Below are positions 33,470 to 44,375 of a stretch of DNA of 64,000 bases, one piece after another. Positions within the stretch are counted from its first letter, which is position 1. Every line of letters begins with the position of its first letter. The position numbers and the translations under genes are program-made. The notes under the pieces are model-generated. The model did no database searches. It was not told where the DNA came from and saw only the letters and a program-made list of their open reading frames with translations. Source of the DNA: Actinoplanes utahensis (GTDB lineage: Bacteria > Actinomycetota > Actinomycetes > Mycobacteriales > Micromonosporaceae); assembly GCF_016862455.1 (NCBI RefSeq), contig NZ_BOMZ01000082.1:1-64000 (forward strand), in the 5' to 3' direction.

Positions 33470-34473
33470 GCCGGGCGCCGTGGGGAACGGGCCAGGTACG
33501 GATGCGGGTACGGCGCCTGCTGCTCCCCGGCGGCGGTCAGCTGTTCCAGGTGCTTGTCGCCGAGGGCCCAGCCGGTGGCGCCGAGGTTGTCGGTGAGCTG
33601 GTCGACGGTCCGGGCGCCGACGATCGGGGCGGTCACCCCGGGCCGCTGCAGCAGCCACCGCAACGCCACCTGCGCCGGGGTCCGGCCGGTCTCGTCGGCG
33701 ACGGCGATCAGCGTGTCGGTGACCGTCCAGGTCCGCTCGTCGACGCTGTTCTCCCAGTTGCCCAGCCACGGCTGCTGGTCGCCGTCCCACCGGGTGCCGG
33801 CCGGCGCCGCCGTCATGCCCCGCCGGTACTTGCCGGTCAGCCAGCCGCCGCGCATCGGCGACCACGGGATGATGCCGACCCCCTCGTTGCGGCACACGGG
33901 CACCAGCTCGTGCTCGATGTCCCGGTCGATCAGGTTGTAGAGCGGCTGCGCCGCCACGAACGGCTCCCACCCGCGGAACCGGGCGACGTCCACCGACTTC
34001 TGCAGCTGCCACGCGGCGTAGTTGCTGACCCCGAGATAGCGGACCAGACCGGTACGGACCAGCTGGTCCAGCGTCGACAGGGTCTCCTCGATCGGCGTCG
34101 ACTCGTCGAAACAGTGCAGCTGGTACAGGTCGATGTAGTCGGTGCCGAGCCGCCGCAGGCTGTCGTGCACCGCCGCGATCAGATGCTTGCGTGACGCCCC
34201 GTGATCGTTCGCCGCGTCGCCGGTGCCCCAGAACCCCTTCGTGGCCACCACCAGGGCGTCGCGCCGCCGCGACGGCAGCCAGCGGCCGATGATCTCCTCG
34301 GAGGCGCCGCCCCCGTACACGTCGGCGGTGTCGATGAAGTCACCCCCGGCCTCCACGTAGGCGTCGAGGATGGCGTGGGACGCCGCCTCGTCCGCCTCCT
34401 TGCCGAAGGTCATCGTCCCGAGGCAGAGCTCGCTCACCCGGAGCCCACTGTTCCCGACATACCGGTATTCCAT
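33466..34473 (-). CDS. Aldo/keto reductase
   Basis: A 335-residue NADPH-dependent (alpha/beta)8 oxidoreductase. The catalytic tetrad is visible: Asp and Tyr in [12 protein letters not shown], Lys in VVATKGFWG and His in DLYQLHCFD. The C-terminal cofactor segment is [23 protein letters not shown] 34473 ([19 protein letters not shown]) is the natural start; the frame is open further upstream but without family residues. It is followed by the coupled pentapeptide gene. Confidence 0.92.
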
Positions 34474-34532
34474 GAATCCGATCTTTGCAGTGGAACCGGG
34501 CCGCTGCCACCACGACGCGGTTCCGGAACACC

Positions 34533-37500
34533 TCACCCTTGCGTACGCTCGGTGATCCGGTCCAGGACGCCGGTGTAGTGGTGACGCCGGTCCGGGCGGG
34601 CGTGCCGGGCCGCGGACGTGAGAGCCGGAACAGCCGGCGGACCGATCCGGATCAGAGCGTCGGCGGCACTCCGGCGGACCGTGGGACCGCGGTGGGTGAG
34701 CAGCCGGACGAGGGCCGGGACCGCGGGCCGGTAACCGGCGTAACCGAGGGCACGGACCGCCGACCGGACCAGTCCGGCATCCGCATCGTCCAGCAACAGC
34801 ATGGTCTGTTCCAGGTAGGTGGCGTGGTCCAGGACCTTGCGGCCGATCCGGTGGGCGTGCAGGCGCAGCCGCTTCTCCGGCCGTCGCAGCAGTTCGGCCA
34901 GCAGCGTCGTGAGGTCGAGGCCGTCGGCGCGGCCGTCCTCGTGCGCTTCCGCGAGGCGGGTGAGCGCCTGCCGGGCCTGCTCGGTGTGACCGGTACGGAT
35001 CAGATTGATCAGGTTTTCGCTGGACGGTCCGGCATCGTCCGCTGGTTGAGGGCGTTCACGGAGCGCGGCGATCGCGGCGGCGTCGTCGTGAACGGCCGCC
35101 GGATCGCGCAGCGGCCCGTCCACGAACGTGAGCCGTTCACCGTGCCCGGCGGCTCTGCACCGCCGATCGATCCGTTCCAGGGCCGGGGTACGCAGCAGCG
35201 GCAGATCCGTGATCAGGTCGAGGAAGCCCCAGCCCCCGGCATCGAGACGGTCCTGCAGGAGGGCGGCGACCGTGTCGGCGTGCCCGGGATGACGCCGTAC
35301 CGCCTGTTCCACCGCCGTCCGTGTGGCCGGCCCGCCGTGCTCCCACCATCGGATCAGCATCGGGAGCAGGCGGTGCATCCCGTCGGCGTCCAGGTACAGC
35401 GCCAGCCGGGCCGCCCGCTCGCGTACGCCGTCGCCCTCGAGATCCTCCTCGTCGAAGCCGGTCAGCGTCTCGGCGAGCCCGGCAGTGACCGCAACGTCGG
35501 CCCGCCCGTGCAGGTACGCGCTCAGCACCGCCCGCCGGATCTCCGGCTCCGGCCAGTCCCGCAACGCTGTGGCGGCCGCGTCACGGCGGTCGGCGGCGGG
35601 CGCGCCGAGCCGGGCGAGCAGGCGTTCGCGTTGCGCGGCCGAGCGGGGCTGGTCCAGGTCTCCGTCCTTCGGGGTACGGGGTACCGGCGCCGGCTGCCGG
35701 GTCTCCTCGGCGATGGTCCACGGTGGCGCGCCGACCGGCTGGAGAGCCTCCATCCAGTCCAGCATCGCGGCGCGGACGTCACCGTCAGCCGCCGGAAACG
35801 CCCCGATGAGCGCGTCGATGCGCTCCCTCGACGAGATCGCCTGGTCGTCGTGGGCCCGGAACGCGGCAAGGCCCCGGGGCGTGCGGACGGCGTCGTGCAG
35901 CGCCAGCCGCCACACCTCGGCATCGGCGAGACCGGGCGTCGGGCCGACAGCCGTGCGGGATGTGACCGCGGAGGGGGTGGCGGCGTCGAGACCGGGGATC
36001 AGAGGGACCGCCGTGCGGGATGTGACCGCGGAGGGGGTGGCGCCGTCGAGACCGGGCGTCAGGGCGACGGCCGTGCGGGATGGGGTGGCGGCGAGGGCGG
36101 CCGCGGGGGAGGGGGCGAAGGCTTCGCGGAGGACGGCGGTCTCGGCGGTCCACGGGTCGGGGCCCAGCCGGGCCGCATCGATGGCCTGCTCCACGTCGGC
36201 GCGGGTGAGGACGGCGCCGCACCGCCGCAGCAGCGGCAGCGTGGATCGGCGGCCGGCCGCCGTCGCCGGTGCCGTGCGGATGCGGGAGACGATGCCGAGC
36301 GCGCGGGCGGCATCCAGGACCGGCGCGACCGCTTCGAGCACGGCGAGGAGGTCGTCGCGGTCCGTACCGGACGCGACTGCCAGCCCCTCGGCGACGGTCT
36401 CGGCGGCCCCTGCGATCGTGCTGATCTCCGAGTCCGTCCACGGGGCCGGGCAGATCCGCAGCGCCCATCCCAGGGCGGCCGGCTCGGCCTCGGCCAGGCG
36501 CAGCCAGCCGGCGAGCATCGGCCGCAGCCGTTCGCGCTGCTCCCGGCCCAGATCCTCGGGCCGGCGCGACACCAGACGCCGGGCGGTCACCTCGTCCCAG
36601 CCGTCGAGGGTCAGGGTGTCGACGTCGTCGTCGATCGGCCCGCGGCCGGCCGGGACGGGGATGCCGAGGACGGTCAGCTCCTCCACGGTTCCGGAGCTGA
36701 GCCCGATCCGGCCGTCGACGACCATGCCGAGCAGCAGCGACGCGACCGGCGAACCCTGCCGGGCGAGGGCGCCGACGGCCCGGGTCGACAAAGACCGGGA
36801 AAGGGCGCCGAGCAACATCTCCCGGGTACGGTCGTCGCGAGCCTGTTCGGCCGCCGCGAGGACGGTGGCGGCGTAGGCGTCGCCGAGGATCGCGCGGAGT
36901 GCCCCGATGAGAGCGACCCGCAGTCCCGGATTGTCGTGGTGGCCGAGCCAGAACAGCAACGCGGGCACCGCCGCCGGGCCGCCCGCGACGGCCAGCACTT
37001 CGGCGGCGGTCTTCTTGACGTTCATGGCCGGGTGCTCGAGAGCGGCCGCGATCACCGGGGCGGCCCAGTGGGCGCGGATCTCGCCGAGCGCCAGGAGAGC
37101 CTGCCGGGCGGTCGGGGCGTCACGGGCGGCGGCCAGCACGATCAGGCTCGCCGACAGCGCGTGCGCGCCGTCGCCGGCGGGGTCTGCGGCCAGCAGGGCG
37201 ATGACGTGTTTACGGACGTGCCGGTCCCGGTGGCGCAGCAACCGGTGAACCCGGGCGCGGGTTCCCCGATACGGCGCCCGGCGCAGCAGGTCCAGGAGCA
37301 CGGCCTGCTCACCGCTGGACCGGCCGGGCCGGTCCAGCAGATCCAGAGCGATGGTCGCGACGAGCGCGTCACCGGCCTCGTCCGGGCCGGCCGCTTCACG
37401 CAGGCAGTACGGCCGCAGACTGCCGCGCTCGTGAAGACGACGGCCCAGCCCACGCAGCGCGGTGACGACCTCATCGGGCACTACGGGCTCAGCGGCCGGC

Positions 37501-39698
37501 CGAACCTCCCCGGAAACCATGCCGGACGGCTTCGAGCCGGAGGCCATGGTGCGGGTGAGGGCCGAGCCTGAGGCGGCGGTGCGGGAGGACGCCGACTGGG
37601 AGGCGACGGTGCCGGAGGACGCCGGCTGGGAGGCCGCGGTGCGAGTGAGCGCCGAGTCTGAGGCGACGGTGCGGGAGAGGACCGAGTCGGAGGCCACCGT
37701 GCCGGACAGTGCCGCGAGATCGGCCACGAGACGCAGCAGGATGTCGGTGATGGCCGGGAGGGTGGAGCCGTCGCCGTTGCGGGCCAGCCCGATCAGCGTC
37801 CGCACCGGATCGTCCGGGTCGGCTGCGGCGCTCAACAGGGCCAGTTCGCGGGGATCGGCGGCGCCGAGGTCGGCCCGGATCCGGGCCGGAAGATCACGAG
37901 GGTTCAGGCGGGCCAGGATCGTCTGACGCCGGCCGGGTTCGTCACTGAGATGCCACAGCAGCTCCAGCGCCCGGCCCCGAACCGCCCGCAGATGGACGGC
38001 GATCACACCGTCGCTGGTCTGGCTCGTGCCGATCCTGTCGGGCAGGGCGGCGACGGCATCGTTGTTCGTCTGGGTCATGCCGATCCTGTCGGGCACGGCG
38101 GCCAGGGCATCATTGTTCGTCTGGGCCATGCCGAGCCCGTCGGACAGGGCGGCCACGGTCGGCGCACCGCCGATGGCTTCGAGCGCGGTCAACGACGCCG
38201 AGGGTGCTCGGGGCAGCATGTCGAGGACCGCTGTCTCGGCCGGGAGGTGCCGCAACGCGACGATCGCGGTCAGGAACGGCTCCGGATCCGCTGCCACCGG
38301 CAGGACGGCGGTGATGGCGTCACCGATCGGCAGATCGTCACCGCCCTGCCGGGCCAGACCGGTCAGCAGCGCGAGTCGCCGGGGCCATCGGGGATCATCG
38401 GGTCCCGCGGTCACCAGCGCGTCGAAAGCCGCCCGCCGGCACGTGTAAAGGATGGTGGCCACCTCGTCCGCGGCGATGGTGTGGTCGGCGAGTGCCATTT
38501 CCACGATCGCCGCCGCGTCGCCGTCGCCCGGGAACACCCCGCGCCGGTGCATCGCCCGCAGGCATGCCGTCACCGGCCCACCGAACAGCAGCGGGTCCGC
38601 CCCGGCGTATCCGGTGATCTCCGGAAGAGCATCCCGCCCGGCCAGTTCACCGAGCGCCCGCAGCGCCTCCTGCCGCGACCGTGGCGGCATCGCCTCATCG
38701 GCGATCACGTCCCGCAGCAGGTCGTCGTGGCCGTGCCGGGCCGCGACGAGGACAGCGGCCTCGATCACGGCGGGATCCGGGACCGGCGATCCGGCGGTGA
38801 GTAGCGGACGGATGCGCTGGGCCGGCTGCGGGGCGAGCGCCGCCCACGGCTCGGCGAGTTCCCGCAGCACGGCGACGATCACTTCGTCGCTCGTGGCCCC
38901 GAACAGCCCACTCCGGCGCGCTGCGGCTCGCGTCGAGCCCGGCTGCTCTCCGTGGTGTTCCGGTGCCCGCGGGCCGGTGTTGGGGATGTCGGCGTGTGCT
39001 GGAGGCAGCAGGCGGGCGATGTGGGCACGGGCCTGTGCCGGGGACAGCAAGCCGGTGTGCAGCGCCTCGCGGGCCACTCGCAGTGCCGCGCCGTGCAGCA
39101 CCGGGTCGGGGGCAGCGGCCAGTTCGCGCAGCAGGTCGTCGGGCTGGGCGGCGTCGGCGGCGGTCAGCCCGGCCACCGCCTGGTATAGCGGTTCCCCTAC
39201 CGGTTCGTCCCGGATCACCGACGGCCGGTCGAGGATCTCCGCCCGCAGCCAGGCGACCCGCACCGGAGCCGGCAGCCCGGCGTCCCGCCAGGAGGGCCAA
39301 GCGGGCGGGGACGGCGAGGAGGGCGAGGACGGCGAGGAAGGCGGGGACGGCGAGGAGGCCGAGGACGGCGAGGACGGCGAGGAGGGTGAGGAAGGTGAGG
39401 AGGGCCGGTCGATGTGCGCCCCGAGCCGCTGGTACAGCCCCGCGAGCAGCAGTGCCGTCTCCGGTGGCCCGTCCACGGTGCGGGGGAGCAGCCCGGCGTA
39501 CTGGGACCCGCCGGTCCGGTTGCGCCCGAGGAACTCCCGCAGACGATCGAGGCCGAGGTGCCGCAGCCGCGGGTCGTCGTGGCGGACGAGCAGCCGCATC
39601 ACCTCCGGGCTGCATTCGTCCACGCCGAGGTGGGCGGTGAGCCAGCCGAGGTCGCCGCGCCGGATCGCGTCTCGTACCGGCTCGCGTACCGCTGTCAT
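34533..39698 (-). CDS. Giant HEAT-repeat protein (1721 residues)
   Basis: A 1721-residue soluble protein made of helical HEAT/PBS-lyase-type repeats along its whole length. Clear units are at the C-terminus ([40 protein letters not shown]) and in the middle ([40 protein letters not shown]). No catalytic domain is seen. Four low-complexity insertions at about residues 98-133, 513-565, 654-716 and 1204-1255 are encoded by tandem DNA repeats. Probably a large scaffold or peptide-binding solenoid. TACCAT eight bases before ATG 39698 is its likely -10. Confidence 0.88.
35935..36085. repeat. 60-nt tandem repeat in the HEAT gene
   Basis: Two full copies and a partial copy of a 60-nt unit encode a 20-residue module (SRTAV..TPGLD.ATPSAVT). 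The copies are nearly identical at DNA level. The frame is preserved. Confidence 0.88.
37550..37730. repeat. 30-nt tandem repeat in the HEAT gene
   Basis: Six imperfect copies of a 30-nt unit encode a 10-residue Ser/Thr/Ala-rich module ([10 protein letters not shown] and variants). Confidence 0.88.
38010..38160. repeat. 51-nt tandem repeat in the HEAT gene
   Basis: About three copies of a 51-nt unit encode a 17-residue module ([17 protein letters not shown] and variants). Confidence 0.88.
39297..39405. repeat. 9-nt tandem repeat in the HEAT gene
   Basis: About twelve degenerate copies of a GGCGAGGAC-like nonamer encode a Ser/Pro tract (SPS repeats). Confidence 0.85.
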
Positions 39699-39748
39699 GC
39701 CGCCCGATGGTAGTGACGGCCGTCAGCCACGCCGATAGATTTTCCACT

Positions 39749-40414
39749 GTGACACGGACGCTGCGCGGCATCGGGGACTTCGGGACGGTGGATGTCTGCG
39801 CGTTCGTGAGCGGCGGAGAACCCGATCATGAGACGGTCGCCTATCTGCGCTCCGGCACTCCGTTCGTGTGGTCGACGAGCCTTTCCCCCTGCCTGCTGTG
39901 CGGTCGACGGACCAGCACGGCGGTCCTGACCGACGGTGAGCGTTACGTCTGGCCGGAAAGCCTGATCCACTACGTCGGGGAACACGGCGTCCGGCTGCCG
40001 GTGAGTTTGCGGGGCACGCCCGGGCCGGTGGACGCCGACCGGTTCGCGGAGGGCCTGCTCACCACCGGTGAGGTGACGATCGACGATGACTGGTGGTCGG
40101 CGCAGCGCCGCGACGCCGTACGTCATCTGCCGGGTTGTCCCCGCAGCCCGGTGCGCTGCTCGTGGCAGCTGCCGCGGAACGCCGACATCTGGGTCGACGG
40201 CGTGTGGCCCGGTGATGTGGCGACGATGGCCCGGCTGCGGCGGCTGTTCGGGGCGGCTTGGCCGTTCTCCGAGCTGCACGCCCGGATCGCGGACCAGCCG
40301 TTCCGGGTCGCCGTGAACGGCGACCCGGTCGCCCTCAACAGGGAGTCCGGCCTGCGTGACCACCTGTTCTACGGCGCGCCGGGCGCGCTGCTGCCGGTGA
40401 CCACGGACGTCTAG
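39749..40414 (+). CDS. Conserved hypothetical protein with CxxC motif
   Basis: A 221-residue soluble protein. A CLLCGRR motif sits near residue 50, and another cysteine pair occurs in LPGCPRSPVRCSWQLP. Tryptophan-rich segments suggest a compact alpha/beta domain. No family recognised. The GTG start is fixed by TAGATT seven bases upstream (leaderless). It is divergent from the HEAT-repeat gene with only 50 bp between starts. Confidence 0.78.
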   Translation: MTRTLRGIGDFGTVDVCAFVSGGEPDHETVAYLRSGTPFVWSTSLSPCLLCGRRTSTAVLTDGERYVWPESLIHYVGEHGVRLPVSLRGTPGPVDADRFAEGLLTTGEVTIDDDWWSAQRRDAVRHLPGCPRSPVRCSWQLPRNADIWVDGVWPGDVATMARLRRLFGAAWPFSELHARIADQPFRVAVNGDPVALNRESGLRDHLFYGAPGALLPVTTDV

Positions 40415-40468
40415 TGCCGCTACGGCGAATCCGGGCTCGGAGCGGTTCCGGGTGGTCGCGGTTCTGTC

Positions 40469-40523
40469 CGGCTGGTTGTCACGGCTGTCTCAGCGCCGCT
40501 GAGACAGCCGTGACAACCAGCCG
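40469..40523. repeat. Dispersed palindrome, copy A
   Basis: A perfect 27-bp inverted repeat around one central base; the left arm begins CGGCTGGTTGTCACGGCTGT. Similar palindromes lie at 53191-53243 and 54522-54580. It may also act as terminator for the gene ending at 40414. Confidence 0.9.
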
Positions 40524-40610
40524 GGGGTGACCGGGACGCGCATGCATGAGCCGCACCGGGCGGCCGGTCGTGCGGGAACGCCTGCAGCAGCCGCCGCGAG
40601 TCACGGGACC

Positions 40611-40757
40611 GTGCGTGGCCCGTACCGAAGCATGGTGTGAGAGAAGTGCGGCGGACCGGAAGTGGACAGCTGCGGGGGCGGTTGGTGGCCGCCGTGAGGC
40701 ACGGTGCGTGGCCCGTGCCGGAGCATGGTGAGACAAGCGCCGCGGACCGGAAGCGGG
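40611..40757. repeat. Imperfect direct repeat of about 55 nt
   Basis: The stretches 40611-40666 and 40704-40757 share GTGCGTGGCCCGT, then CATGGTG and GCGGACCGGAAG, with small indels, 93 bases apart. They lie in the gene-free gap 40524-40764, downstream of the serpin-like gene. No coding function seen. Confidence 0.8.
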
Positions 40758-40764
40758 CGCGGTT

Positions 40765-41937
40765 CTAGTGGCCGCCGCGGTGGGACTCGGGCAGGTCCTC
40801 CGGCTCGGTGACCCAGGCGGAGAAGACCGGCACACCGTGCCACGGGCTGTCCGGGGCGGCGTCGGTGAAGGCGACGACCGCGTACGGATGCCCGAACCGT
40901 AGCTCCACCGACCGCACCAGGCGGGGGGCCGGCGCGCCGCCCCGGGCGGCGAAACCGGTCACCGCGGCCGCCTCGAACCCGTACCGCCCGAACGTGGCGG
41001 TCGCCGACTGTCGTGCCTGGAAACCACCGCCGCCGGTCAGCGGCGCCAGGGTCCGTGCCGCGGCGTCGAAGCCGAGACCGGGCCCGGCCAGTTCGTGGTC
41101 GCTGGTGGCCGACCAGCAGGGCAGCACGGCCTGGCAGGAGTCGCCGCCGGACGACATCTCCTCCCGGGCGTCCCACAGCGCCGTCTCGCCCAGCGGCAGC
41201 GCGGACAGCGGCGTGCGGGCGGCGGCGCCGATCGCGTAGGCCGCGGCGAGCACCCGGCCCGGCTCGACGCCGGGCGCGGCGGCCACCGACATCACCCGCA
41301 GCGTTCCCGGCGCGCCGGGCAGGGTCGCCGGCGCCGCGTGCACGATGACGTCACCGGCCTGCGCCGTGGTCGCCACGTACGCGTCGTGGCCGTGCCGCGG
41401 CGTCCGCAGCACCGTCGACAACCGGGACGCCCAGGGGCTCGCCGGGCCGAGCGCCCGGGCCGGGGCGGGCCGGAACGGCGTGTCCCAGCGGACCTTCGTC
41501 GCGAGCGCGCTGCCCATCACCAGCGCCGTCCGCGGCGGCACCGAGACCGGGAACCGCTTGATCAGGCCGAAGGTGTTCGCGCGTGCCCACCGGTCCAGAT
41601 CGTCCTGGCCGCGCAGCGGTTCGACGGCTGTCGCCGACGGCAGGCCGGCCTGCCAGCGGGCCAGCGCGGCCCGGTCGACGTGACCGGAGTGCCAGACGGC
41701 GGTCGCCGCGGCGACCAGCGGGTGCGGGGCGGTGAGCAGCGTCCCGGCCACGTCGGCGGCCTGTGACGGGCTGACGCCGAGGGCTTCGGTGAGCCCCGGG
41801 TCGGGGTCGGGCGTGGCGGAGGCGGTGAGCGCCGGCAGCAGCCAGGCGCCGAGCGGTGAGGCGACATGGTGCTCGCCGCCGGCGACGGCGTGCACGCGCT
41901 GCGCGTAGCGGCCCACCGCGGCGATCCAGTCATTCAT
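40765..41937 (-). CDS. Serpin-like protein
   Basis: A 390-residue protein resembling serpins, serine protease inhibitors that trap proteases through a mobile loop. Supporting features are an N-terminal SPLGAWLLPALTA helix, a LVMGSALATKVRWDTPF strand region, and the C-terminal HPYAVVAF ... VPVFSAWVTEPED, which corresponds to the serpin end (PFLF ... P.F.G.V..P). No signal peptide is evident, so it would act in the cytoplasm. The hinge of the reactive loop is not typical, so inhibition is unproven. The ATG overlaps the upstream gene's stop by eight bases. Confidence 0.72.
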   Translation of the reverse strand: MNDWIAAVGRYAQRVHAVAGGEHHVASPLGAWLLPALTASATPDPDPGLTEALGVSPSQAADVAGTLLTAPHPLVAAATAVWHSGHVDRAALARWQAGLPSATAVEPLRGQDDLDRWARANTFGLIKRFPVSVPPRTALVMGSALATKVRWDTPFRPAPARALGPASPWASRLSTVLRTPRHGHDAYVATTAQAGDVIVHAAPATLPGAPGTLRVMSVAAAPGVEPGRVLAAAYAIGAAARTPLSALPLGETALWDAREEMSSGGDSCQAVLPCWSATSDHELAGPGLGFDAAARTLAPLTGGGGFQARQSATATFGRYGFEAAAVTGFAARGGAPAPRLVRSVELRFGHPYAVVAFTDAAPDSPWHGVPVFSAWVTEPEDLPESHRGGH

Positions 41938-42691
41938 CCGCGGCTCCGATCAGTCGGGTGTGGACGACGATGTCGTGCAGCGTCGCCACAGCGCCCGGAT
42001 CGGCGTACCCCGGGAGATGGGTTCGATCTCGGGCCTCCTCCAGTTCGGCGCGCAGCGCCGGCACGTCCGCCGCCAACCGCGCCGCCGCGAATGCCGGTAA
42101 CGGTCCGTGTTCGGCCTCGCGCTTCGCGGCGATCAGCTCGGGCACGTAGGAGATCGCCGCGCCGAGCACGCCGAGGTCGCATTCGAGTTCGCCGGTGCGC
42201 ATCAGATGGATGCCGGTGAGCAGCACCCGCAGCGTGTAGAGGGCGGGCTTGAGCTGCCCGGTCTTGTGGTAGAGCCGTTCCTGGGTGGCGGCGAACCCGA
42301 GGTAGTGGTGGGCGTGGTTGCTGGTGAGCAGCCCGGGCGCGACGGCTTTGAGCTCCGCGTGCACGTCCGAGGTGACGACCACGAGCGGTGACAGCAGCTG
42401 TTCCAGAACGTAGCCGTTGCGGCTGTTCAGCAGCTTCGCGAACTTCAGCAGATCATGGCTGACCACGTCGAGTTCGACACCGTCGCGCACGCCGGAATGT
42501 TGCAGAGTGTCCGGCCCGGTGCGCAGGCCCACGACCTCCGCCGGCGGCAGCACATGCGAGGCGCGCAGGTCCAGGTCCGAGTCCCGGGAGGCGAAACCGT
42601 ACAGATGCGCGCCGCTCACGGTCGCGAAGAGCAGGGGATACGGCAGGGTGGTGGCGGCCTCGGCGGCCCACTGCGGGATGTCGAGGGTCAC
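41930..42691 (-). CDS. YcgL-like nucleotidyltransferase, second copy
   Basis: A 253-residue nucleotidyltransferase of the DNA-polymerase-beta superfamily, related to YcgL. The active-site region is LLFATVSGAHLYGFASRDSD then LDLRA: a G-S-like motif reading S-G, then DSDLD for metal binding. Helical C-terminal half with HAHHYLGFAATQERLYHKTG. The GTG start overlaps the stop of the previous paralogue (GTGA). The usual GS is swapped to SG, so activity could differ from its neighbour. Confidence 0.82.
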   Translation of the reverse strand: MTLDIPQWAAEAATTLPYPLLFATVSGAHLYGFASRDSDLDLRASHVLPPAEVVGLRTGPDTLQHSGVRDGVELDVVSHDLLKFAKLLNSRNGYVLEQLLSPLVVVTSDVHAELKAVAPGLLTSNHAHHYLGFAATQERLYHKTGQLKPALYTLRVLLTGIHLMRTGELECDLGVLGAAISYVPELIAAKREAEHGPLPAFAAARLAADVPALRAELEEARDRTHLPGYADPGAVATLHDIVVHTRLIGAADE

Positions 42692-43362
42692 CGCAGATTC
42701 CTTTCGCGTACGGCCACCAGCACCCGATCCACCGCGTTCACGTCCGGCCGCCGGGGCAGGGACGTGTGGGCGGCCGCCTCGGCGAGATCGTTCTGGAGCC
42801 GGCCGGCCCACGCGGCCACCTCGGGCCACGGGCGCTCGCCACGGCGTACCGCGAGAAGCTCTTCTCTCTGATCCGACACGTCGACGAGCACCTCGCCGGT
42901 GCGCAGCACGTGGGCGCCGGCCGTCAGCAGCCGGATCATGTGCATCGCCTGCTTGAAGTCGACCTCGCCGGTCCGCTCCCGCCGGTTCGCCAGCTTGGCG
43001 AGCTGGTCACGGGCATAGCTGCCGTAGCTGTCGGCCACCCGCTGGGACAGGAACGAGTGCCGCACCGCACGCAGCGCGTGACCGTCGTCGGTGATCGACT
43101 CGACGAGCGGGGACCACAGCACTTCGAGGACGGTCGGGTTGGCCTGCAGCGCGAGCGTGCAGAACCGCTCGAACTCCCAGGAGAACTGCTCCTCGGCCGG
43201 CCCGTCCAGGTGGGTGGGCGGTTTGGTGAGCGTCCAGAACGCCCGGGTCGGCGCGACGAACACACCCCGGCGGTCGTGGTCGGAGTCCGGGCGGTGCAGA
43301 CCGTAGGCCCGGGATCCGACCACGACCGCGAGGGCCGTGTGCCGTTCGACAAAGTCGATCAT
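42688..43362 (-). CDS. YcgL-like nucleotidyltransferase, first copy
   Basis: A 224-residue paralogue of the next gene. The catalytic motif VVGSRAYGLHRPDSDHDRRG is canonical (GS, then D-x-D). The helical half includes LEVLWSPLVE and FKQAMHMIRLLTAGAHVLRT, matching equivalent segments in the second copy. First gene of a three-gene coupled operon. Substrate unknown: AMP transfer to protein or RNA is possible for the superfamily. Confidence 0.85.
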   Translation of the reverse strand: MIDFVERHTALAVVVGSRAYGLHRPDSDHDRRGVFVAPTRAFWTLTKPPTHLDGPAEEQFSWEFERFCTLALQANPTVLEVLWSPLVESITDDGHALRAVRHSFLSQRVADSYGSYARDQLAKLANRRERTGEVDFKQAMHMIRLLTAGAHVLRTGEVLVDVSDQREELLAVRRGERPWPEVAAWAGRLQNDLAEAAAHTSLPRRPDVNAVDRVLVAVRERNLR

Positions 43363-43379: not shown

Positions 43380-44375
43380 CTAAAGGTCAAGCACCGTCGC
43401 GTCGATTTCGTCGAGCTCGCTCTGGTCGATGCTCAGGTTGCCGAGCGCGGCCACGTTGTTCTCCAGCTGCTCCACGCTCGACGCGCCGATGATCAGGCTG
43501 GTCATCCGCTCGTCGCGCAGCGCCCAGGCCAGCGCGAACTGGGCGAGCGTCTGCCCGCGCCGCTTCGCGATGTCGTTGAGCGTGTGCAGCCGGGCCACGG
43601 TCTTGTTGTCCAGCGCGCTCTCGTTGAGGAACACGCTGGTCCGGATCCGCGAGTCGTCCGGGATGCCCTTGAGGTAACGGTCGGTGAGCAGGCCCTGCTG
43701 CAACGGGCTGAACGCGATGCAGCCGGCCCCGGCCGCCTCGAGGGTGTCGAGCAGCCGGTCGTGCTCGATCCACCGGTTCAGCATCGAGTACGACGGCTGA
43801 TGGATCAGCAGCGGCGTGCCCAGCTCGCGCAGGATGTCGGCGGCCCGGGCCGCCTGCTCGCTCTTGTAGTTGCTGATGCCGACGTACAGCGCCTTGCCGG
43901 ACCGGACGATCGCGTCCAGCGCGGTCATCGTCTCCTCGAGGGGCGTCTCCGGGTCGGGCCGGTGGTGGTAGAAGACGTCGACGTAGTCCAGACCCATCCG
44001 CTTCAGCGACTGATCCAGCGACGAGATCAGGTACTTGCGGGAGCCCCAGTCCCCGTACGGGCCGTCCCACATGGTGTAACCGGCCTTCGACGAGATGATC
44101 AGCTCGTCGCGGTGGTGCTTGAGGTCGGCCTCCAGGATCCGCCCGAAGTTCGTCTCGGCGCTGCCCGGCGGCGGCCCGTAGTTGTTGGCCAGGTCGAAGT
44201 GGGTCACGCCCAGGTCGAAGGCACGGCGGACGATGTCGCGCTGGCGGTCGGCGGGACGGCCGTCACCGAAGTTGTGCCAGAGGCCGAGGCTGATGGCGGG
44301 GAGCTTGAGACCGCTGCGACCAGCACGCCGGTAGATCATTTCGGCGTAGCGGTCGGCGGCAGGGGTGTACGTCAC
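43380..44375 (-). CDS. Aldo/keto reductase, YghZ/Gpr-like
   Basis: A 331-residue reductase similar to L-glyceraldehyde-3-phosphate reductase YghZ. The family signature SLGLWHNFGDGRPADRQRDI is present, with tetrad residues Asp and Tyr in HFDLANNYGPPPGSAE, Lys in IISSKAGYTMWDGPYGDWGS and His in DVFYHHRPD. C-terminal cofactor motif LIIGASSVEQLENNV. GTG 44375 with TAGGGT seven bases upstream is a leaderless start. Role: probably detoxification of methylglyoxal or reduction of aldehydes. Confidence 0.9.
   Translation of the reverse strand: MTYTPAADRYAEMIYRRAGRSGLKLPAISLGLWHNFGDGRPADRQRDIVRRAFDLGVTHFDLANNYGPPPGSAETNFGRILEADLKHHRDELIISSKAGYTMWDGPYGDWGSRKYLISSLDQSLKRMGLDYVDVFYHHRPDPETPLEETMTALDAIVRSGKALYVGISNYKSEQAARAADILRELGTPLLIHQPSYSMLNRWIEHDRLLDTLEAAGAGCIAFSPLQQGLLTDRYLKGIPDDSRIRTSVFLNESALDNKTVARLHTLNDIAKRRGQTLAQFALAWALRDERMTSLIIGASSVEQLENNVAALGNLSIDQSELDEIDATVLDL

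Follow-up and report, generated by a model that had tools for sequence, protein, structure and literature searches.

The first 64,000 nucleotides of contig NZ_BOMZ01000082.1 of Actinoplanes utahensis (RefSeq assembly GCF_016862455.1; hereafter the window, that is, the whole stretch analysed) contain three minus-strand genes that overlap at both junctions: gene A (42688–43362; ATG start, 224 amino acids) and gene B (41930–42691; GTG start, 253 amino acids), which encode nucleotidyltransferases of the RlaP family (RNA ligase-associated pol-beta nucleotidyltransferase), and gene C (40765–41937; ATG start, 390 amino acids), which encodes a serpin-fold protein and is a lineage-specific neighbour of the other two. 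The stop of A and the start of B share 4 nt (GTGA; 42688–42691) and the stop of B and the start of C share 8 nt (ATGAATGA; 41930–41937), all on the same strand. A preliminary description of the window had reported these three overlapping genes, with two paralogous nucleotidyltransferases of distinct motifs and a serpin-like third product, and had suggested that the products would be made in fixed ratio and might constitute a nucleotidylation system; the genes, motifs and fold are all borne out here, whereas we find no support for the trio as a system. We think it probable that A and B form a two-subunit RlaP-type module, most likely for RNA end repair, and that the serpin is probably a bystander; the assignment of the pair to RNA repair is made with moderate confidence.

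Both A and B are full-length RlaP members (PF10127), passing the gathering cut-off (23 bits) over the full domain: A matches positions 22–248 of the 249-position profile (E = 2.6e-33, 116.2 bits) and B positions 15–247 (E = 6.8e-42, 144.3 bits). The nucleotidyltransferase motif reads GSRAYGL..SDHD in A and SGAHLYGF..DSDLD in B. G16, S17, D28, D30 and E63 are invariant in an alignment of 27 A rows, as are S26, G27, D37, D39, D41 and D75 in one of 26 B rows, and the catalytic roles that we assign among these residues are those presumed from the pol-beta motif. The genome encodes a third, distant RlaP protein (contig C10, 37825–38298), which falls in a clade separate from A and B.

Among 80 loci around B (the best 80 of 579 confirmed in GTDB genomes), 70 have A no more than 3 kb away: in tandem at less than 300 bp in 54, in tandem but separated by a gene or gap in 6, convergent in 8 (all Streptomyces), fused in one (Dactylosporangium sp. 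AC04546) and in swapped order in one. The 10 loci with B only include some that are cut near contig ends and one with a broken frame. The 4-nt overlap is found exactly in 38 of the 52 directly adjacent, co-directional A–B pairs called at these loci and is more than chance, and the 8-nt overlap of B and C is seen in the A. utahensis genome only. Genes at the loci were called with a simple codon-score script trained on the genes of the window, which small genes may escape; at one genus locus (L115), the A gene of genome G131 was overlooked in this way, though it is present in the homologue search of the genus.

Within the genus (67 genomes), B or its paralogue A is matched in 62 genomes; B itself is present in 51 (fragmentary in five), only an A-like match is found in 11 (five of which were checked as A by locus) and neither is found in five. 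With B as the query and coordinates read by eye, 50 of the 67 genomes have the two genes 3 kb or less apart. The five fragmentary matches (G123, G135, G144, G137 and G148), in which an A-like match persists nearby, reflect either recent loss of B or assembly errors. In the wider family set (121 genomes), 94 genomes have an RlaP match. The regular neighbour in the genus is an aldo/keto reductase gene (43380–44375, minus strand; PF00248, E = 3.5e-71), which in the window shares the strand of A and terminates 17 nt before the start of A; 12 of 20 genus loci have the full series GcvP (divergent)–aldo/keto reductase–A–B, the remaining eight comprising five with A and no called B (some of them chosen for that), one with B only, one with a gene between the reductase and A, and one with no called A. 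One genome of the genus (G090, locus L110) has A–B without the reductase. Across all genera seen, the pair has no constant neighbour; the reductase recurs in some.

Other genes are found in or next to the pair in individual lineages. In Actinoplanes sp. NBRC 103695, A and B are separated by the gene for a 772-amino-acid NACHT-domain protein (L168, 7603–9921, plus strand), and a protein of about 498 amino acids with beta-propeller (PQQ-like) Pfam matches occupies the same position in L106 (4892–6388), with homologues also between A and B in L107, L207, L219 and L221 (73–93% identity in the pairs compared). In genus g34, an ADP-ribosylglycohydrolase gene directly follows or overlaps B (L103, 7412–8335; L104, 9727–10638; assigned by Pfam in L103 and by cluster membership in L104), and a methyltransferase gene directly follows or overlaps the 3' end of B in L101.

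Natural fusions combine the two proteins in a constant order. In addition to the Dactylosporangium protein, one open frame of 487 amino acids holds both domains in a genome of the family set (G115). A search with the Dactylosporangium fusion found 257 proteins, and in the best 120 of these at least 38 align over at least 95% of the query; among the matches listed, the full-length fusions include proteins from metagenome-assembled genomes named Planctomycetota and Thermoanaerobaculia (42–43% identity). The N-terminal half is closest to A and the C-terminal half to B in 39 of 39 fusion rows, query included. In an alignment of natural fusions, both halves keep their Asp pairs without exception, and E65, presumed to be the third acid in the A half, is nearly invariant. 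A phage search with the fusion matched 212 records, none over 80% of the query, and no fusion was seen there. The predicted model of one fusion (pLDDT 91.4; pTM 0.81, a single overall number) places both halves well despite a disordered linker; a profile search found no solved RlaP structure. The fold neighbours of this model are distant (8–13% identity in the top rows), and it is the B half that the nucleotidyltransferases listed among them cover, the A half being hardly probed, so the lack of matches to the A half is uninformative.

Phylogenetic analysis separates the two proteins in the same way. In a tree of 72 rows, A and B lie on opposite sides of a branch with 100/100 support, and the convergent A and B of a genome of the same class (G307, L255) are placed inside the A and B clades, respectively. 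Both clades are still supported at 100/100 in a tree of 57 rows that includes fusions and Deinococcus proteins, in which the same eight rows (three Deinococcus and five distant fusions) cluster in each clade (100/96 in A, 99/96 in B), with the Dactylosporangium fusion and P0125 placed apart from them. As the same eight rows cluster in both clades and other fusions fall elsewhere, the trees fit a history in which A and B were inherited together as a pair and were fused more than once. The root was not placed; as drawn, the A side also includes the other RlaP types, and the branches between types are long.

The genes found next to the pair in certain relatives point to a function. Two members of Microtetraspora, M. 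fusca (L184) and Microtetraspora sp. NBRC 16547 (L186), have the series Hen1–Pnkp–A–B, in which successive genes overlap by 8, 4 and 4 nt, Pnkp being a polynucleotide kinase-phosphatase-ligase. A plasmid search with B matched 15 records, of which three from Deinococcus were examined (a fourth Deinococcus record, a partial match in two pieces, lies outside this set): the plasmid of D. gobiensis carries Hen1–A–B–Pnkp, that of D. ficus the same series with one extra gene before Pnkp, and that of D. taeanensis (L262) Hen1–A–B with a Thg1-family gene upstream and no Pnkp within the stretch seen. Each Deinococcus gene scores best against the expected profile (263–265 bits to A, 318–325 bits to B). 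Less compact arrangements are Hen1–Pnkp–B, A being on a separate contig (G040), a Pnkp–Hen1 unit directed towards A–B at a distance of 1.8 kb, across a protein kinase gene (Actinomadura sp. DC4, L200) and Pnkp about 3 kb upstream (Actinocorallia populi, L229). The pair sits in predicted Hen1(–Pnkp) RNA-repair operons, in which genes overlap, in Microtetraspora and on the three Deinococcus plasmids.

Such linkage is confined to a minority of loci. No Hen1 or Pnkp is among the called genes at 76 of the 80 loci, nor at the other 39 of a further set of 40 that includes G040. By arrangement, L184, L186, L261 and L263 are Hen1–Pnkp operons with the pair, whereas the pair of the window stands outside any such operon, with no RNA ligase beside it; the A. 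utahensis genome (G000) encodes Hen1 and Pnkp together on another contig (C51), where its sole match to the Pnkp ligase is found. The pair and Pnkp co-occur weakly across the 121 family genomes (31/39 versus 48/82, P = 0.026, uncorrected for kinship); the presence lists for the pair, Pnkp and the serpin were read by eye, and a Pnkp remnant in G064 was scored as present.

Published work predicts that RlaP replaces lost nucleotides ahead of ligation (PMC7824862), and we suggest that the A–B pair could take this role with two active sites. In the scheme that we envision, a ribotoxin would cut tRNA or another RNA, with the loss of nucleotides; the two sites of A–B would replace the missing nucleotides at one or both of the broken ends; and Pnkp would then seal the break while Hen1 would 2'-O-methylate the junction. 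As Hen1–Pnkp is encoded elsewhere in A. utahensis, A–B would act in trans. Like other RlaP proteins, A and B are full-length members that keep the family motif; what differs here is that two clades usually occur together, often overlapping and sometimes fused, and the passages on RlaP in PMC7824862 and PMC6514570 do not mention tandem pairs. Similarly, the passages of PMC4411300 on bacterial Hen1–Pnkp repair name Pnkp1, Rnl and Hen1 as components, with 'nucleotidyltransferase' there only as a domain label in a figure legend. None of the literature titles listed in our search concerns a tandem A–B pair, the 2016 survey of RNA repair by Burroughs and Aravind lying outside that search.

A bolder version of the proposal is possible, and we put it forward only tentatively: A–B would be an obligate heterodimeric polymerase that rebuilds RNA ends, a previously undescribed repair component with two active sites that is distributed across Actinomycetota, Deinococcota, Planctomycetota and Thermoanaerobaculia and was fused more than once. 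Its sites might divide the labour (for example, one for each side of the break, or one to prime and one to extend), such that RNAs with excised nucleotides, which are beyond the reach of ligase systems alone, would be restored.

The third gene of the run appears to have a separate history. The predicted fold of C is clearly that of a serpin, although its match to the Pfam Serpin profile (PF00079; E = 0.016, 14.9 bits) is below the cut-off of 27 bits; precomputed PF00079 assignments exist for a number of its close homologues. The inhibitory hinge of serpins has the consensus ExGTEAAAA from P17 to P9, according to the part of PMC8233489 that describes it. The corresponding stretch of C (residues 318–326, RYGFEAAAV; register set by eye) agrees with it at P15 (Gly), P13 (Glu) and P12–P10 (Ala), and departs from it at P17 (not Glu), P14 (Phe) and P9 (Val), Phe being found at P14 in all 27 aligned serpin rows. 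As no signal sequence is apparent by eye in the alignment, we expect C to act in the cytoplasm, as a weak or altered inhibitor. Genome G076 (L142) has two tandem copies of the serpin gene, away from RlaP.

Nucleotide comparison of the window with nine sister loci suggests how the serpin gene came to lie here. By blastn, similarity extends up to 41942–41952, that is, to the last codons of B, and resumes at 34473–34492, at the start of the next aldo/keto reductase gene; the approximately 7.5 kb between (about 34493–41941) are unmatched in seven of the nine sisters beyond short stretches. We interpret this break as marking a lineage-specific insertion that contains the serpin gene, an Ntox27-like gene and a large HEAT-repeat gene. 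No gene was called between B and the reductase in six of the sister loci and other genes were called in three, and an Ntox27-like stretch occupies the same spot in two (L115 and L119). The site 3' of B is, as judged from these comparisons, a variable spot, and the 8-nt overlap of B and C most readily reads as the border of the inserted segment. Within the segment, the Ntox27-like gene (39707–40414, plus strand; PF15531, 29.1 bits against a cut-off of 24) is convergent to the serpin gene, and between the two lies an inverted repeat (40455–40537; 41-nt arms, 85% complementary, 1 nt between) that may serve as a terminator for both directions of transcription; next to this repeat are two pairs of direct repeats (36 and 29 nt, 86%). 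The HEAT-repeat protein (34533–39698, minus strand; 1,721 amino acids) has a weak PADLOC HEAT-ARM match (21.3 bits).

The distribution of serpins bears on whether A, B and the serpin could be one three-protein system, in which the serpin would control a protease or the nucleotidyltransferases themselves. The overlaps at both junctions, the serpin fold and a cytoplasm potentially common to all three proteins would suit such a system, yet the arrangement is found in no other genome examined. A serpin homologue is present in 16 of the 67 genus genomes and adjoins RlaP in one of these, A. utahensis; in the other 15 it is either separated from RlaP by 0.88 Mb or more or located on a different contig (distances recomputed for the four genomes with both on one contig), bearing in mind that separate contigs of draft genomes do not strictly exclude closeness at contig ends. 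In the family set, serpin matches occur in 51 of 121 genomes, serpin and RlaP lie together in G000 only, and the next nearest distance is about 150 kb (G115). No serpin is among the called genes at any of the 80 loci around B, close serpins and the A–B pair do not co-occur (5/39 versus 15/82, P = 0.60), and at 20 serpin loci elsewhere, six of which have a common chromosomal neighbourhood, nothing but the serpin clusters with genes of the window and no partner gene is constant. Together with the break in similarity at the end of B, these observations lead us to reject a conserved trio and make a three-protein system highly improbable, and the serpin is not supported as the third partner proposed in the preliminary description. 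That description had named as grounds for refutation either a serpin-like gene not conserved next to the pair in related genomes or a predicted fold other than serpin; the first applies here, although the fold is that of a serpin. It is also decidedly unlikely, although less so, that the newly arrived gene has been recruited as a useful passenger whose coupling to B sets its expression level or stress regulation. Its intact reading frame and exact overlap junction are in keeping with recruitment, as are the unrelated genes found immediately after B, or overlapping its 3' end, in other genera (L103, L104 and L101); the arrangement is known from a single genome, however, and thus gives no evidence of selection on it. 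The account that we favour is that a lineage-specific insertion just 3' of B brought in the serpin gene, which is probably transcribed along with the pair as a bystander and not as a functional third component.

For the pair itself, the alternative is a signalling or modifying function (that is, synthesis of an oligonucleotide messenger or AMPylation of proteins, perhaps in defence), with the linkage to Hen1–Pnkp being secondary. The fold neighbours of the fusion include Hailong HalB and the protein-AMPylating GlnE and DrrA, most loci (76 of 80) are apart from Hen1–Pnkp, and the NACHT protein between A and B in one Actinoplanes strain and the beta-propeller protein in five other loci could be read as signs of such a role. 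Against this, the fold neighbours are as distant as noted above, no gene is kept beside the pair across genera, the known linked genes in two phyla are RNA-repair enzymes and the family context of PF10127 is that of RNA repair; we therefore regard a signalling or modifying pair as unlikely. The likeness to Hailong is one of fold only, without a partner conserved across genera beside A–B (HalA was not itself searched). Comparison with type VII MntA/HepT systems gives a short match of A to the N-terminal nucleotidyltransferase motif (15.3 bits against a cut-off of 60), on which A was rejected as an MntA antitoxin, its neighbours being the aldo/keto reductase and B instead. A PADLOC defence system was likewise rejected (A, weak PDC-S09 match of 13.7 bits; B and C, none). 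The earlier suggestion of a toxin or modifier pair is thus not supported, the known linked genes being Hen1 and Pnkp, and of the proposed nucleotidylation system there remain the paired nucleotidyltransferases, probably acting on RNA as judged from their family and the Hen1/Pnkp linkage, without the serpin component.

In summary, the run of three genes illustrates that short gene overlaps can mislead, as one of the two overlaps here seems to belong to a long-coupled gene pair, the other probably being an insertion scar. The unfused A and B would presumably act as a heterodimer. If the proposed role of the pair is correct, bacterial RNA repair would include a dedicated two-subunit enzyme that replaces nucleotides, found alongside Hen1–Pnkp in two phyla, and the predicted step of 'fill-in before sealing' would be directly testable with the existing in vitro repair assay.
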